Source: Allocoleopsis franciscana PCC 7113 (GTDB lineage: Bacteria; Cyanobacteriota; Cyanobacteriia; Cyanobacteriales; Coleofasciculaceae). Taken from it: 64,000 bases of DNA. Of the stretch, positions 7,563-40,970 are shown piece by piece. Location: positions 5,668,001-5,732,000 of the forward strand of contig NC_019738.1 of NCBI RefSeq assembly GCF_000317515.1, in the 5' to 3' direction. How positions within the stretch are numbered: position 1 is the first letter of the stretch; each line of letters begins with the position of its first letter. The notes under the pieces were generated by a model, which saw nothing but the letters and a program-made list of their open reading frames with translations, searched no databases and was not told the origin of the DNA. A program made the position numbers and the translations under genes.

Positions 7563-8414
7563 TTGAAACAACGACTCGATACATTATTAGTAGAACTTGA
7601 CCTTTGCTCATCACGACAACTAGCGCAACGGCTGATTCGTGCGGGTGAAGTGAGGGTAAATCAGCAGGTGATTGATAAACCGGGGACTGAGGTTGACACC
7701 ACCGCAGAAATTCAAATTAAGGAAAAATCGCCTTATGTTTCCAGAGGTGGCGAAAAGCTTGCTAAAGCCCTAGAAGAGTTTGCCATTCCTGTGGAAGGGC
7801 GCATCTGCCTAGATGGGGGTATCTCAACCGGTGGCTTTACCGACTGCTTGCTGCAAGCTGGAGCAAAACAAGTTTATGGTGTGGATGTGGGTTATGGACA
7901 AGTTGCCTGGACGTTGCGGAATGATCCACGGGTCATTTTGAAAGAACGCACTAATATACGCCATCTGCAACCGGCTGAGTTGTACGGAAGTACGCCCCCC
8001 CTCACCCCCTCTGATCAAGGGGGAGAAATTAAGGAAAATATTTATGCAGATTTGGGGGTTGTGGATGTTTCGTTTATTTCCCTGACGAAAATTCTAGAAG
8101 CGTTGTGGCATCTACTGCAACCCCCGCGTGAGGTGGTGTTGCTGGTGAAGCCACAGTTTGAGGTGGGGCGGGAACGGGTTGGGAAAAAAGGGGTGGTGCG
8201 CGATCCGAATGACCATGCTTTGGCGATCGCACAAGTCTTACAATCGTCCCAACAGTTAGGCTGGACATACAAGGGTTTAACTTGGTCGCCAGTGACGGGT
8301 CCTGCGGGTAATATCGAGTATCTTCTCTGGCTAGGAATGGAAAGCCAAACCACAATTCCTGATTTGGCGGCAATTAAACACATCACCCAATCCGCTGTTT
8401 CTTACTTTCGGTAG
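7563..8414 (+). CDS. tlyA: TlyA-family rRNA (cytidine-2'-O)-methyltransferase
   Basis: Predicted S-adenosylmethionine-dependent ribose methyltransferase acting on ribosomal RNA, often mis-named hemolysin A. The start is TTG 7563 (MKQRLDTLLVEL). Residues 1-62 are an S4 RNA-binding domain (SSRQLAQRLIRAGEVRVNQQ). The FtsJ-like methyltransferase domain follows (RGGEKLAKALEEF, CLDGGISTGGFTDCLLQAGA, VYGVDVGYGQVAW, VVDVSFISLTKILEAL, LLVKPQFEVGRE). An in-frame insert of about 15 residues (STPPLTPSDQGGEIK) separates ELYG from IYADLGVVDVS, a spot where homologues have a short loop. It is encoded by a C-tract/G-tract palindrome and is described as a separate finding. The 283-residue length is otherwise typical. 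Confidence 0.9.
   Translation: MKQRLDTLLVELDLCSSRQLAQRLIRAGEVRVNQQVIDKPGTEVDTTAEIQIKEKSPYVSRGGEKLAKALEEFAIPVEGRICLDGGISTGGFTDCLLQAGAKQVYGVDVGYGQVAWTLRNDPRVILKERTNIRHLQPAELYGSTPPLTPSDQGGEIKENIYADLGVVDVSFISLTKILEALWHLLQPPREVVLLVKPQFEVGRERVGKKGVVRDPNDHALAIAQVLQSSQQLGWTYKGLTWSPVTGPAGNIEYLLWLGMESQTTIPDLAAIKHITQSAVSYFR
7991..8027. repeat. C-tract/G-tract palindromic repeat inside tlyA
   Basis: CCCCCCCTCACCCCCTCTGA is followed directly by TCAAGGGGGA, which pairs with the C-tract. It is an imperfect single copy of the palindrome type found three times in tandem in the kinase gene at 39.1 kb. It adds residues rich in Pro, Gly and Gln without breaking the frame. Confidence 0.6.
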
Positions 8415-20764: not shown

Positions 20765-21250
20765 ATGACACCTGTCGCACAACCCTCTTCATTCCCCCCT
20801 TCAAGAGGGGATAGCAGCGGCTCGAATGTTTTTCCTGAAGAATTTTGGCAGGGTGTTGAGCAATTTAACCAACAGGAATATTACGCCTGTCACGACACTC
20901 TAGAGGCATTGTGGATAGAAGCGGTTGAGCCGCAAAAGCGATTTTACCAAGGGGTTTTGCAAATTGCCGTTGCCTGCCATCATCTCTTCAATCTCAACTG
21001 GCGCGGTGCTGTGATTTTGTTGGGCGAGGGGCTGGGACGCCTCAGAGATTACCAACCTGACTACGAAGGAATTGATATCACAAGTTTAATGATCCAGAGT
21101 GCGGAACTTTTGCAGGCACTACAGGAGTCTGGCTTAGAACAAGTGGCTGATTTTGTCAAGCACCTAGAGGAAGAACTGACAAGTGGTGCGAACCCAGCCA
21201 GTGAAGCCGCGATCGCTCGGTTGCCAAAAATTAAGCGAGTTGAGTCCTGA
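20765..21250 (+). CDS. DUF309 domain-containing protein
   Basis: 161 residues. The core EEFWQGVEQFNQQEYYACHD and TLEALWIEAVEPQKRFYQGV carries the DUF309 signature (an Asn/Glu-x-x-Y-x-x-H-D-x-L-E-x-x-W pattern), followed by QIAVACHHL. The family is a small all-helical domain of unknown biochemical role, cytosolic. The N-terminal extension SSFPPSRGDSSGS is low complexity and encoded by a C-tract/G-tract palindrome (CCCCCCTTCAAGAGGGG) of the kind found inside tlyA and the kinase gene. Lone gene about 100 bp after ftrC. Confidence 0.85.
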   Translation: MTPVAQPSSFPPSRGDSSGSNVFPEEFWQGVEQFNQQEYYACHDTLEALWIEAVEPQKRFYQGVLQIAVACHHLFNLNWRGAVILLGEGLGRLRDYQPDYEGIDITSLMIQSAELLQALQESGLEQVADFVKHLEEELTSGANPASEAAIARLPKIKRVES

Positions 21251-21585
21251 ATCCCTGTGTAAGTTGAAAGTAAACTGGTTAGTCGCAAAGCCAGCTAGTA
21301 CAAGAAGGCAGAAGGCAGGAGGCAGAAGGCAGAAGGAAAGAAAGTTTGTACAGTAAGCTTTTTAACCTTTTTCAACTGGATAGTTATTTCCGCCATGCTG
21401 CACTAGAACCTTCAACCCTTAGCAGCGAAACTTCCAGACATGTCTGGTCGTCAAGAGATTTATCGCCTTTTCTAACAGGAAGCATTCTTGAACCCACTAA
21501 CTAGATGGCGTGGGCTTTCTTACTGGATTTCTGTAAACTAGGCACAGCAGCATCACATCTTTGACCTCAGTTACCCGTACAACCT
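21251..21585. other. Intergenic region with MITE-like element
   Basis: About 335 bp between DUF309 and lptA. It is largely occupied by the short repeat element at 21295-21406. The rest (21407-21585) holds CTTCAACCCTTAG-type repeat debris and presumably the lptA promoter; no gene is seen. Confidence 0.5.
21295..21406 (-). repeat. MITE-like element, copy 1 (112 bp)
   Basis: Bounded by CTAGTACA at the left and TGCACTAG at the right (imperfect terminal inverted repeats). Read on the minus strand it contains GTTGAAAAAGGTTAAAAAGC and TTACTGTACAAA, then a run of CTTCTGC-type heptamers. The plus strand shows AGAAGGC repeated about five times. The same arrangement recurs on the plus strand at 56035-56170. 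It encodes nothing. Confidence 0.7.
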
Positions 21586-29788: not shown

Positions 29789-29827
29789 GAAAAAGGAAAA
29801 ATTGGAAGTTGACCTTTTTCCTTTTTC
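29789..29827 (-). terminator. Likely icd terminator (A/T-rich hairpin)
   Basis: GAAAAAGGAAAAA and TTTTTCCTTTTTC form a 13-bp inverted repeat with a 13-nt loop, 20 bp after the icd stop. Read on the minus strand, the stem is followed by TTTATA. The right arm is part of a CCTTTTT tandem repeat. Confidence 0.55.
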
Positions 29828-29847
29828 CTTTTTCCTTTTAGTTTGCT

Positions 29848-35842: not shown

Positions 35843-37270
35843 ATGAATTCAGTTTGGCAACAGCTTACTCTGTCAAATTTACAGTTGTATCAGTGGCGAG
35901 GCGCTAGCTATTTATATCGGCTGGTGGGATTGCTACAGTCTTGGCGTAGGGGCAGCTACGTCATGCAGTGGGCTGAGCCGATAGGGGCACTGTTGGTGGC
36001 TTTAGTGCTGGTTCTAGCTCCTTTTGTCGGGAGAAGCAACAATGCACTGATTGCTGTTTTGTTATCAGCCTGTGGGGCTTTTTGGGTATTACTTACCCTA
36101 TCGGATGAGGCAGGACAGCGACAAGGTCTTCACCCGAAGGTGACGCCCATTCATCTTTTGGTGTTGTTGTATTGGGGCATTTCCGTGGTGGCATGTGCCC
36201 TCTCGCCCGTGAAAAAAGCAGCGGCTACGGGATTGGGGAAGCTAACACTTTATTTGTTGCTATTTGCCTTGATGGCGCGGGTATTGCGCTCGCCCCGCCT
36301 TCGCTCTTGGATTATTGCTCTGTTTCTCCATGTCTCACTGTTTATTAGTGTTTACGGGCTACGACAGTGGTTTTTTGGGGCAAAAGCGCTGGCGACTTGG
36401 GTCGATCCCACCTCAAGTGCGGCAAAACTGACGCGGGTCTATAGTTATTTAGGTAATCCTAATTTACTGGCTGGGTATCTGATTCCGGCTGTTGCTTTGA
36501 GTTTAGCCGCGATCTTCGTTTGGCAGCGCTTACTCACCAAAGCCTTGGCAGCAACCATGTTTGTCGTGAATTCCGCCTGTCTGGTGTTAACCTTCAGTCG
36601 CGGTGGCTGGATTGGCTTTGTGGTCTGTCTTTTCGTCTTCTTGGTGCTGCTGGTGTACTGGTACAGCGTTCAGCTACCATCCGAGTGGCGTCCTTGGGCA
36701 ATGCCCGTACTAGTGGGCGGTTCGGCGGCTGTGATGATTCTGGCTGTGCTGTTTGTGGAACCTGTGCGCGATCGCGTTGCTAGTATGTTTGTCGGTCGGG
36801 AAGATAGTAGTAACAACTTCCGGATTAATGTCTGGTCAGCCGTTCTAGAGATGATTCATGATCGCCCCATTATCGGCATTGGCCCAGGCAACCAGGCGTT
36901 CAACAAAGTCTATCCCCTCTACATGCGTGCTCGCTACAGTGCTTTGAGTGCTTATTCCATTTTTCTGGAAGTGGCTGTGGAAACCGGTTTAATCGGATTG
37001 TCCTGTTTCCTGTGGTTGCTTGTTGTCACGTTTAATCAAGGTGTCCAGCAAGTGCGTCGTTTGCGGACGTTAACTAACCGTAATAGCTTTTGGTTAATGG
37101 GTGCGATCGCGGCGATGTTTGGAATGCTTGGTCATAATCTTTTTGATACCGTTTGGTATCGTCCCGAAGTGAACACCCTCTGGTGGCTGATGGTCGCTCT
37201 TATTGCCAGTTTCTATGTCTCTCCCATTGCTGATACGTCAACCGTTGAAGAGTTGAAGGTTGAAGGTTGA
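35843..37270 (+). CDS. ictB: IctB-type polytopic protein (O-antigen ligase/WzyC superfamily)
   Basis: 475 residues from ATG 35843 (MNSVWQQLTLSNLQLYQWRG); a TTG at 35780 would add 21 residues. About ten membrane segments, with the Wzy_C superfamily region LTRVYSYLGNPNLLAGYLIP, LVLTFSRGGWIGFVVCLFVF and PIIGIGPGNQAFNKVYPLYM. The N-terminus and these blocks match the cyanobacterial IctB group, first described as involved in inorganic-carbon accumulation; the name is historical and the transport function is disputed. Structurally it belongs with O-antigen ligases and polymerases, so a role in surface glycans is possible. Convergent with smpB. Confidence 0.85.
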   Translation: MNSVWQQLTLSNLQLYQWRGASYLYRLVGLLQSWRRGSYVMQWAEPIGALLVALVLVLAPFVGRSNNALIAVLLSACGAFWVLLTLSDEAGQRQGLHPKVTPIHLLVLLYWGISVVACALSPVKKAAATGLGKLTLYLLLFALMARVLRSPRLRSWIIALFLHVSLFISVYGLRQWFFGAKALATWVDPTSSAAKLTRVYSYLGNPNLLAGYLIPAVALSLAAIFVWQRLLTKALAATMFVVNSACLVLTFSRGGWIGFVVCLFVFLVLLVYWYSVQLPSEWRPWAMPVLVGGSAAVMILAVLFVEPVRDRVASMFVGREDSSNNFRINVWSAVLEMIHDRPIIGIGPGNQAFNKVYPLYMRARYSALSAYSIFLEVAVETGLIGLSCFLWLLVVTFNQGVQQVRRLRTLTNRNSFWLMGAIAAMFGMLGHNLFDTVWYRPEVNTLWWLMVALIASFYVSPIADTSTVEELKVEG

Positions 37271-37331
37271 AGCCTCCTAAGCGGCTAAATTAGCAACTTG
37301 CTTTCCCTTTAACCTGCCAACATTCAACCCT

Positions 37332-38753: not shown

Positions 38754-40970
38754 ATGAACCTGGGACTCGGACAAACAATTGGTGGACGCTACACCATCAT
38801 CAGCCAACTGGGACAAGGTGGCTTTGGCAGAACCTTTGTGGCACAAGACCAACACCTGCCCGACCACCAGCAGTGTGTCGTCAAGCAACTGAAACCTCAA
38901 GCGACAGACCCCTTTACCCTGCAAACGGCAAGGCGTCTATTTGATACGGAAGCTAAAGTCCTACATCGGTTGGGAAGTCACGACCAAATTCCCCAACTTT
39001 TTGCTTACTTTGAGGAAAATCAAGAATTTTATTTGGTGCAGGAATTCATTGAAGGGGATGACCTCAGTCAAGAACTCACCCCCCCAACCCCCCCTTATCA
39101 AGGGGGGGCTAATACAGGTAATCCCTCCTTGTACCAAGGGAAAGCTAGTGCAGGTAATCTTCCTCTTTACCAAAGGGGAGCTAGGGGGGGGCAATTAAGT
39201 GAAGATAAGGTGATTTCCCTGTTAAAAGAAATCCTGGAAATCTTAGATTTTGTTCATCAGCAAAACGTCATTCATCGAGATATCAACCCGCGAAATATCA
39301 TTCGGCGTAAGCAAGATGGCAAGTTAGTTTTAATTGATTTTGGGGCGGTTAAACAAGTTAGCACTCAAGTCGTTCAAGGAGGGCGAACAAACATTACGAT
39401 CGCCATTGGTACTCCTGGCTATTTACCCAGCGAACAAGCCAACAGCAATCCTAAATTAAGCAGTGATATTTATGCTGTAGGAATGGTGGGAATTCAAGCT
39501 CTGGCTGGCATCAGCCCTGAGCAACTGCCAATCAACCCCGATACAGGTGAAATTAGTTGGCAGGATAAGGCATCGGTTAGCCTTGAGTTTGCCGAAGTAT
39601 TAGATAAGATGGTGCGCTACGATTTCCGGCAACGCTACCAGTCAGCGGCTTTAGCCTTACAAGCGCTGAACGAATTAAAGACTATTTCTAAAAGTACTGT
39701 TTCCTTGCCTGCGGCTGCATCATCAAAACCTATTATTGCCAAGCCAAAACTATCTAAATCGTTACTGTACAAAGTTTTAATTTCAATGGGTGTCCTCAGT
39801 TTGGGGTTGGCTGCAACCGTTTTAATCGTTAACTTGGTGAAGTCTTCTAATGCAACTGACTTGTATAAACGGGGCGATACATTTTTAGAATTGAAGCGAT
39901 ATGATGATGCACTTGCGTCTTATAATCGCGCTGTTGAACTGAAACCTGAATACGCAGCGGCTTGGAATGGAAAAGGGAATACTCTTTTAGCTCTGAAGCG
40001 GTATGAAGAAGCCCGTAATGCCTACGACAAAGCGATTCAAATTCAGCCGGATTATGCAGAAGCTTGGATTGGGCGAGGGAATGCCCTAGATTCTTTGCAG
40101 CAGTACAAAGAAGCTATTAATTCGTTTGATAGAGCACTTGAATTTAAATCAGATAGTCTAGAAGCCTGGAATAATAAAGGCAATGTGCAGATTAAATTGC
40201 AGAAATATTCAGACGCGATTGCATCTTTTGATAAAGCCATTGAACTTCAACCCAATTACGCTCCCACCTGGAACCATCGCGGCTGGGCACTGCATAATTT
40301 GAGACAATATGAAGAGGCTGTTAAATCATATAACAAAGCAGTTGAATATCAACCCGATTTCCCTAATGCTTGGTATCAGCGCGGAAATGCGTTAATTAAT
40401 TTACAAAAATATCAAGAAGCGGTGGAATCTTATGATAAAGCCGTTCAATTTCAGCCCAACTTTTATAAAGCCTGGTATAGCCGAGGCAGCGCCCTCCTTA
40501 ACTTACGGCAATACGAGCAAGCCTTTGCCTCATTTGACCAAGCCGTTAAATTCAATCCTGATGATTCGGAAGCTTGGTACAATCGCGGCTGGTCACTTCA
40601 TCAATTGCAACGCTACCAAGAAGCTGTTGCTTCTTACAACAAGGCAATTCAATTACGGAAAAAATTTTACCAAGCCCAATATAATTTGGGGAATGTATTT
40701 TATAAATTAAAACGCTACCAAGATGCGTTCGTGTCTTACAACAAAGTTTTAGAAATTCAACCCAACCACTACGAAGCTTGGTACAGTCGGGGCAATGCTT
40801 TAGTTAACTTAAAGCGATATCAAGACGCCATTGATTCATATAACAAAGCACTTCAATACAAGCCAGATTATCAAGCTGCCAAAGACGCCCGGAACCAAGC
40901 GGAAAGTCAGCTAGATTCGGTACCCAAGAAGCCAGAAGAGCAAAAACAGCAGGGGGAAGCAAAGAACTAA
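38754..40970 (+). CDS. Serine/threonine protein kinase with C-terminal TPR repeats
   Basis: Start ATG 38754 (MNLGLGQTIGGRYTIISQLG), as in cyanobacterial kinases; upstream GTG 38697 is less likely. Kinase domain about 10-315: Gly-loop LGQGGFGRTFVAQD, ATP Lys in CVVKQLKP, catalytic loop VIHRDINPRNIIRR (the usual Lys of HRDxKP is Asn), DFG in LIDFGAVKQV, and GTPGYLPSEQ. A 39-residue in-frame insert (TPPTPPYQGGANTGNPSLYQ and following) lies between the hinge and SEDKVISLLKEILE. A membrane span at about 340-362 (LISMGVLSLGLAATVLIVNL) is followed by about ten TPR units (AWxxxGNAL…YxxAxxSYxKAI) facing outward. It probably senses or binds a partner through the TPRs. The membrane protein 100 bp downstream may be co-transcribed. 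Confidence 0.92.
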   Translation: MNLGLGQTIGGRYTIISQLGQGGFGRTFVAQDQHLPDHQQCVVKQLKPQATDPFTLQTARRLFDTEAKVLHRLGSHDQIPQLFAYFEENQEFYLVQEFIEGDDLSQELTPPTPPYQGGANTGNPSLYQGKASAGNLPLYQRGARGGQLSEDKVISLLKEILEILDFVHQQNVIHRDINPRNIIRRKQDGKLVLIDFGAVKQVSTQVVQGGRTNITIAIGTPGYLPSEQANSNPKLSSDIYAVGMVGIQALAGISPEQLPINPDTGEISWQDKASVSLEFAEVLDKMVRYDFRQRYQSAALALQALNELKTISKSTVSLPAAASSKPIIAKPKLSKSLLYKVLISMGVLSLGLAATVLIVNLVKSSNATDLYKRGDTFLELKRYDDALASYNRAVELKPEYAAAWNGKGNTLLALKRYEEARNAYDKAIQIQPDYAEAWIGRGNALDSLQQYKEAINSFDRALEFKSDSLEAWNNKGNVQIKLQKYSDAIASFDKAIELQPNYAPTWNHRGWALHNLRQYEEAVKSYNKAVEYQPDFPNAWYQRGNALINLQKYQEAVESYDKAVQFQPNFYKAWYSRGSALLNLRQYEQAFASFDQAVKFNPDDSEAWYNRGWSLHQLQRYQEAVASYNKAIQLRKKFYQAQYNLGNVFYKLKRYQDAFVSYNKVLEIQPNHYEAWYSRGNALVNLKRYQDAIDSYNKALQYKPDYQAAKDARNQAESQLDSVPKKPEEQKQQGEAKN
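39078..39192. repeat. Three tandem palindromic 36-bp units inserted in the kinase gene
   Basis: Each unit is a C-rich arm, a TTxTxCAA centre, a G-rich arm and a GCTAxTxCAGGTAAT linker. Units begin at about 39072, 39108 and 39144, with period 36 (12 codons). They encode PPYQGGANTGN, PSLYQGKASAGN and LPLYQRGARGG in frame. The first centre is the perfect palindrome CCCCCCCTTATCAAGGGGGG with one base in excess on an arm; later units have drifted. Confidence 0.85.

Follow-up and report, generated by a model that had tools for sequence, protein, structure and literature searches.

A gene for a Ser/Thr protein kinase with C-terminal TPR repeats in the genome of the cyanobacterium Allocoleopsis franciscana PCC 7113 contains an array of three tandem, palindromic repeat units that leaves the reading frame intact, and this raises the question of whether the array is a part of the protein or a DNA element that the protein tolerates. 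The gene lies in a stretch of 64,000 nucleotides (NC_019738.1, positions 5,668,001 to 5,732,000 of the forward strand), here referred to as the window, whose numbering is used throughout. Very probably, the array represents one copy of a dispersed cyanobacterial palindromic element resembling the G/C-rich triplex motif, of which frame-keeping copies are tolerated within genes.

The kinase ORF spans 38754–40970 on the plus strand (Pfam Pkinase, E 7.4e-31, in addition to TPR families), and its reading frame runs uninterrupted through the array from the ATG at 38754 to give 738 aa. The whole element (39078–39192, plus strand, as are all of its parts) encodes TPPTPPYQGGANTGNPSLYQGKASAGNLPLYQRGARGG and consists of a 5′ foot, three hairpin units, two linkers and a 3′ foot, amounting to a net gain of 102 nt relative to the empty site. 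The 5′ foot is a C7 run (39079–39085), the third strand of a putative triplex, which the predicted fold pairs with the 3′ foot. It is followed by the hairpin of unit 1, CCCCCCCTTATCAAGGGGGGG (39088–39108; match to covariance model R1 at 39078–39117, E 8.1e-10), by linker 1 (39109–39122), by unit 2, a decayed hairpin around CCCTCCTTGTACCAAGGGAAA (39123–39143) in a region that differs in a congeneric genome with one unit fewer, and by unit 3, a hairpin around CTTCCTCTTTACCAAAGGGGAG (39159–39180). The 3′ foot, a G8 run (39184–39191), mirrors the 5′ foot and is preceded by the spacer CTA. Since a C-run foot at the 5′ end and a G-run foot at the 3′ end are able to pair, the limits originally given to the array coincide with those of the whole element.

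The 36-nt spacing and preserved frame described in the original prediction were confirmed, with CAA at 39099, 39135 and 39171 in exact 36-nt steps and the same period recovered at the array by TRF in the window. The linkers of the pattern GCTAxTxCAGGTAAT number two, not three, namely GCTAATACAGGTAAT, a 15-mer that begins at the final G of the arm of unit 1, and GCTAGTGCAGGTAAT. Among the units, originally described as palindromes with C-rich and G-rich arms, perfect C7/G7 symmetry is confined to unit 1; unit 2 has decayed, and about 8 pairs are left in unit 3. The core CCCCCTTATCAAGGGGG had four matches in the window with up to three mismatches, compared to 0.11 expected. An Rfam scan of 38900–39400 returned no match.

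The position of the array in the protein, predicted to be a loop-tolerant site just after the hinge, was located more precisely with AlphaFold. In the model of the kinase domain, built with 18 homologues, the kinase fold was retained and insert residues 104–142 were predicted to be disordered (pLDDT 25–34). The insert falls between a helix ending at residue 103 and a helix starting at residue 145, helices alphaD and alphaE, so that "just after the hinge" corresponds to the alphaD–alphaE loop.

A search of the genome (7.97 Mb, 9 contigs) found the repeat elsewhere, as had been anticipated. The kinase array had 45 matches in its own genome, and the repeat had none in shuffled sequence. A hairpin pattern gave 256 matches compared to 45 for a reversed control, about six times as many, with adjacent registers of one site counted repeatedly. 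The basic unit consists of C6-7, a spacer (TAA, TAG, AA, CA, TG and similar), C6-7, TTnnnAA and G6-7, followed by a loose tail, and inverted pairs or multi-hairpin arrays end in a mirror foot, [CT]TA or [CT]TG plus G6-8. From an alignment of 37 copies, all from this genome, we built a covariance model, the E-values of which are rough. No covariation was seen in the hairpin of this alignment; the stem is nearly invariant and leaves none to count, so the result supports neither side. The model lists 157 matches, and those to an E-value of about 8e-6 make up 84 sites, of which 63 have a perfect C6-N-C6-N-G6 layout and 77 have it with one mismatch (hairpin loop of up to 7 allowed). Among the model matches was the relative originally noted in tlyA (7991–8027; E 2.5e-7). 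A second proposed relative, in the DUF309 gene (about 20795–20812), was rejected as a family member: the corresponding stretch of the congener shows no indel and a degraded hairpin, and the model gives no hit there. A search of plasmid records, which possibly did not take in those of this genome, returned psbA neighbours only.

Many of the hairpins carry a second small repeat of about 20 nt, TCCTCACTAAAGCTCCGG, nested at the border of C-run and loop (L048, L176, L228, L024, L335, L344, L360, L192 and others). This repeat is in frame in XdhC (L048), and a 45-nt stretch related to it lies within the hairpin in the congener's RluA-type gene. Heptamer tandem repeats, perfect or near-perfect, were also observed in the window at 21303–21336 (AGAAGGC), 29813–29839 (CCTTTTT) and 37244–37272 (GTTGAAG).

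Copies were scored as intragenic where the ORF spanning the site extended for 60 codons or more in both directions, an assignment based on open frames and Pfam matches. By this measure 26 of the 84 sites are in-frame copies well within long ORFs, and two further sites lie near ORF ends (28 in total). The distribution of flanking codons was bimodal; the remaining sites, nearly all below 35 codons, are clearly intergenic, and copies are more often intergenic than intragenic. Most of the host genes, conserved enzymes among them, could be named by Pfam; they encode XdhC, ChlH (CobN/Mg-chelatase with DUF3479), prolyl-tRNA synthetase (ProRS), UvrC, HypF, CbiG plus methylase, a radical SAM (rSAM) protein with DUF2344, an S9 peptidase, an RPE65-type oxygenase, an RluA-type synthase, a DEAD helicase, a GAF kinase, Ser/Thr kinases, NACHT, CHAT and TPR proteins, and TlyA. 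The copy in tlyA (S4 and FtsJ domains) is a single hairpin on the plus strand (7991–8034; model E 2.5e-7) that is in frame and encodes TPPLTPSDQGG. A count of frame phase and domain position, suggested with the original prediction, showed that all six combinations of orientation and phase are represented among the intragenic hairpins and that the inserts are often within the span of a Pfam domain (ChlH, ProRS, UvrC, HypF, CbiG, S9 peptidase, RPE65, CHAT and GAF). Encoded peptides include TPPYQGG, NPPLVRGG and SPLDKGG; a Pro/Gly peptide results in any orientation or phase because C-runs are read as Pro and G-runs as Gly whatever the frame, and their order is unchanged in the reverse complement. 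An AlphaFold model of ProRS reached a pLDDT of only 34 with a shallow alignment and was left out of the evidence.

Intragenic copies also differ from the others in sequence. C arms of at least 7 were found in 12 of the 22 measurable intragenic copies compared to 1 of 36 intergenic copies (Fisher p 7.5e-6), and the mean number of stop-free frames out of 6 was 3.8 in copies inside genes versus 3.1 in copies outside. We read this bias as a filter for frame-keeping copies, although the difference in C-arm length could be the mark of a subfamily instead of frame selection.

Comparison with a genome of the same genus (G001; about 90% DNA identity over aligned blocks) showed that sites vary among close relatives. 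Its kinase array has two units versus three in A. franciscana and is exactly 36 nt shorter. Among the 18 aligned kinase homologues, 17 have the short form with an empty site (e.g., ELTPGKRLSED), the array occurs only in the congener, and no homologue has the loop written in other codons. Of the two outcomes named beforehand as refuting the prediction, such a loop in homologues and absence of the repeat from the rest of the genome, neither occurred. The clean presence/absence that had been sought was found at several genes: the congener is without the copies in tlyA (net 45 nt), ProRS (net 120 nt), RPE65 (net 27 nt), rSAM and UvrC. The CbiG, S9 peptidase, RluA-type and XdhC sites are common to both genomes, and the ChlH arrays of the two differ in make-up and unit number. 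All differences seen at the compared sites keep the frame. At some of the junctions inspected a few bases seem to have been replaced. Presence/absence at these sites suggests gain, though individual sites may reflect loss in the congener. The original suggestion that the repeat may be "active" is supported with respect to recent gain and change in array length, and not to observed transposition.

At an E-value of 1e-5 the model matched 25 times in the congener, compared to 84 sites at about that level in A. franciscana, a difference that may reflect recent gain or loss. A second Ser/Thr kinase (L027, compared with L141 of the congener) has a hairpin copy between HRD and DFG that is shared by the two genomes, as well as about 90 nt of additional in-frame sequence, containing CGCGGGGA repeats, in A. 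franciscana only.

Beyond the genus, at least 87 of the 145 sampled genomes of the class had model matches at E 0.01 among the candidates scored, at most about 45 per genome. Sites inside ORFs made up 9 of the 30 inspected in G020, a member of another family, about 7 of 10 loci in the congener (four of them assigned to it by list order) and about 1 of 10 in G149 (under a printed label that mixes G149 and the congener). Copies in frame in both G020 and the congener show that the phenomenon is not peculiar to A. franciscana.

Several known systems share features with this element, and its anatomy agrees with that of the G/C-rich intrastrand triplex motif (TM or TMECO), with the E. coli consensus CCCTCNCCC N3-6 GGGNGAGGG N3 GGGNGAGGG (Holder et al., 2015; PMC4666352). 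The motif occurs in high numbers in cyanobacteria and is locally unstable, its copies in E. coli K-12 are always intergenic, and single-strand folding into a triplex has been reported for the E. coli motif (PMC4666352). Both families have a C-run, a loop, a G-run, a 3-nt spacer (often TTA) and a G-run, occur as singles and inverted pairs, and are unstable between close relatives. At the sequence level the present element falls within the definition of the motif (C, loop of 1–6, G, short spacer, and G, or the complement, with a stem of at least 6), and the pattern counts and the class-wide matches given above agree with the abundance above chance described for cyanobacteria. It differs from the E. 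coli motif in its longer arrays, in blocks of pure C6-7/G6-7 and in location, which is not part of the definition: about a third of the sites here (26 of 84) are in frame in genes.

Rickettsia palindromic elements are in-frame palindromes of about 150 bp in several families (PMC10969869). The resemblance noted in the original prediction is good as an analogy and goes no further. Both are palindromic, in frame in unrelated protein genes and tolerated at loops, but the unit here is about 30–40 nt, the phylum is different, and the likeness is one of description, not of sequence. GTAG/CGTC REPs have been found inside genes of several bacteria, some of them the DNA-repair genes uvrA and uvrB (PMC3733652). 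With these the element shares short hairpins, singlets and inverted dimers, some of them in ORFs (uvrC here). However, the terminal GTAG or CGTC is absent (alignment A1 has C6-7 plus a TAR/AA spacer), the C/G-run feet are much larger, and a RAYT partner is inconsistent. Cyanobacterial small dispersed repeats (SDR) are reportedly very small hairpin elements, nested in one another and in minitransposons; the likeness in size, dispersal and nesting is again by description, not by sequence. MITEs such as Nezha are likewise non-autonomous dispersed repeats, and some copies here lie inside MITEs. Unlike MITEs, the element has feet of C/G runs, and the terminal inverted repeats of transposon type and the target-site duplication were not seen.

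We therefore favor the reading of the kinase array as a tolerated copy of this dispersed element, which is found in intergenic DNA, within MITEs and, in frame, within many genes. The element consists of a C-run foot, a spacer of 2–4 nt and a C-run/G-run hairpin, arranged as singles or as inverted pairs and arrays that are footed at both ends. Surface loops would be its entry points into genes, where a stop-free copy would add a hydrophilic Pro-turn-Gly segment in any orientation or phase, frame-keeping copies would survive and others would be purged. Within genes, the arrays would then grow and shrink by whole multiples of 3 nt, with slippage or unequal recombination at the hairpin repeats as the probable cause, and the insert would be tolerated selfish DNA rather than a conserved part of the protein.

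How the element spreads could be explained in more than one way. Spread by DNA repair, in which replication stalls at the hairpin or triplex and units are then inserted, duplicated or lost through gap filling, template switching or recombination between copies, is a possibility that we hold tentatively. Array lengths and units vary at shared sites (kinase, ChlH and UvrC), no target-site duplication was seen at the junctions inspected in the comparisons with the congener, and the same class of motif has been linked to local instability in E. coli (PMC4666352). Repair of this kind accounts better for change within an array than for arrival at new, unrelated sites. It seems rather unlikely that the element is a sequence of REP/REPIN type copied by a RAYT (HUH) transposase since lost from A. 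franciscana. Its singlets of foot plus hairpin and its inverted pairs look like REP singlets and dimers, and in G059 (L264, 1875–2049) a RAYT gene starts 5 nt from one copy and has a second about 90 nt further, both upstream. However, a GTAG or CGTC tag is missing, a clear copy was present at only 2 of the 30 loci that hold relatives of this RAYT, and the element-rich genomes G020, G129 and G139 are without it. The A. franciscana genome has a single intact Y1 transposase, which is IS200-like, plus a fragment, with no copies beside either. No transposase was tied to the element among these Y1 genes and the 30 loci examined.

We consider it improbable that MITEs with a central motif brought the copies into genes and then eroded. 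Short MITE-like repeats with long inverted arms and one element copy near the centre were observed (L010–L013, L015, L018, L022, L038 and L039), and such repeats hold 16 of the 84 sites. However, none of the 16 is intragenic and MITE arms were found at none of the 26 intragenic copies; more likely, the motif inserted into MITEs, which then amplified it. Very unlikely is the proposal that the Pro/Gly loops are selected parts of the proteins, such as flexible linkers, with a DNA similarity that stems from codon usage. The inserts do occupy loops, and several genes share the position across lineages, but a single DNA layout is read in every orientation and phase, the element is more often outside genes than inside, and most homologues are without the insert. 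Strong RNA hairpins notwithstanding, it is scarcely credible that these are transcription terminators or attenuators that happen to fall in ORFs, given the absence of a T-run after the hairpins, the many copies deep in enzyme ORFs and the lack of an Rfam match around the kinase array.

The best-known palindromes that invade proteins are those of Rickettsia and of a few bacteria rich in REPs. Here, a class of motif known mainly as intergenic DNA lies within the reading frames of core enzymes in free-living cyanobacteria, and in the literature searched, outside of which many subscription papers fall, we found no description of a triplex-type motif in frame in proteins or of such cyanobacterial inserts. 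The element offers an explanation for Pro/Gly-rich loops in cyanobacterial proteins that could otherwise be mistaken for functional linkers. A connection of recurrent in-frame loop gain with a DNA structure of triplex type would be new, if true. With full, shorter and empty sites available in congeners, the spread of such elements and the reasons for their tolerance by proteins become testable.

Some of the same loops hold inserts in other lineages, as was seen when homologues were searched by their flanks alone and the loci then fetched. ProRS of G020 has a different array at the same codon as in A. franciscana, TlyA of G020 has a copy in the corresponding loop, and element-like inserts occupy the same UvrC loop in G020 and, in part, in G003. 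The ProRS inserts of A. franciscana and G004, which belong to two genera, are 97.5% alike compared to 91.3% in their flanks, even though the congener is without the insert. The 3′ ends of the UvrC inserts of A. franciscana and G020 have an uncommon spacer, GGGGAACGAGGGGGGG, in common, and for UvrC this argues for shared descent or transfer. Given this spacer and the nearly identical ProRS inserts, we do not claim that insertion at shared sites was independent, although we considered it. Length variation is usual in the ProRS, TlyA and UvrC loops, so part of the shared occurrence is explained by tolerance. That the element repeatedly entered these loops in separate families, by targeting or by exchange between lineages, and so continually supplies core proteins with loop variants that keep the frame is, in our assessment, doubtful. 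In the ProRS of G024 (L288), the same loop was observed to hold an unrelated insert of more than 60 aa.
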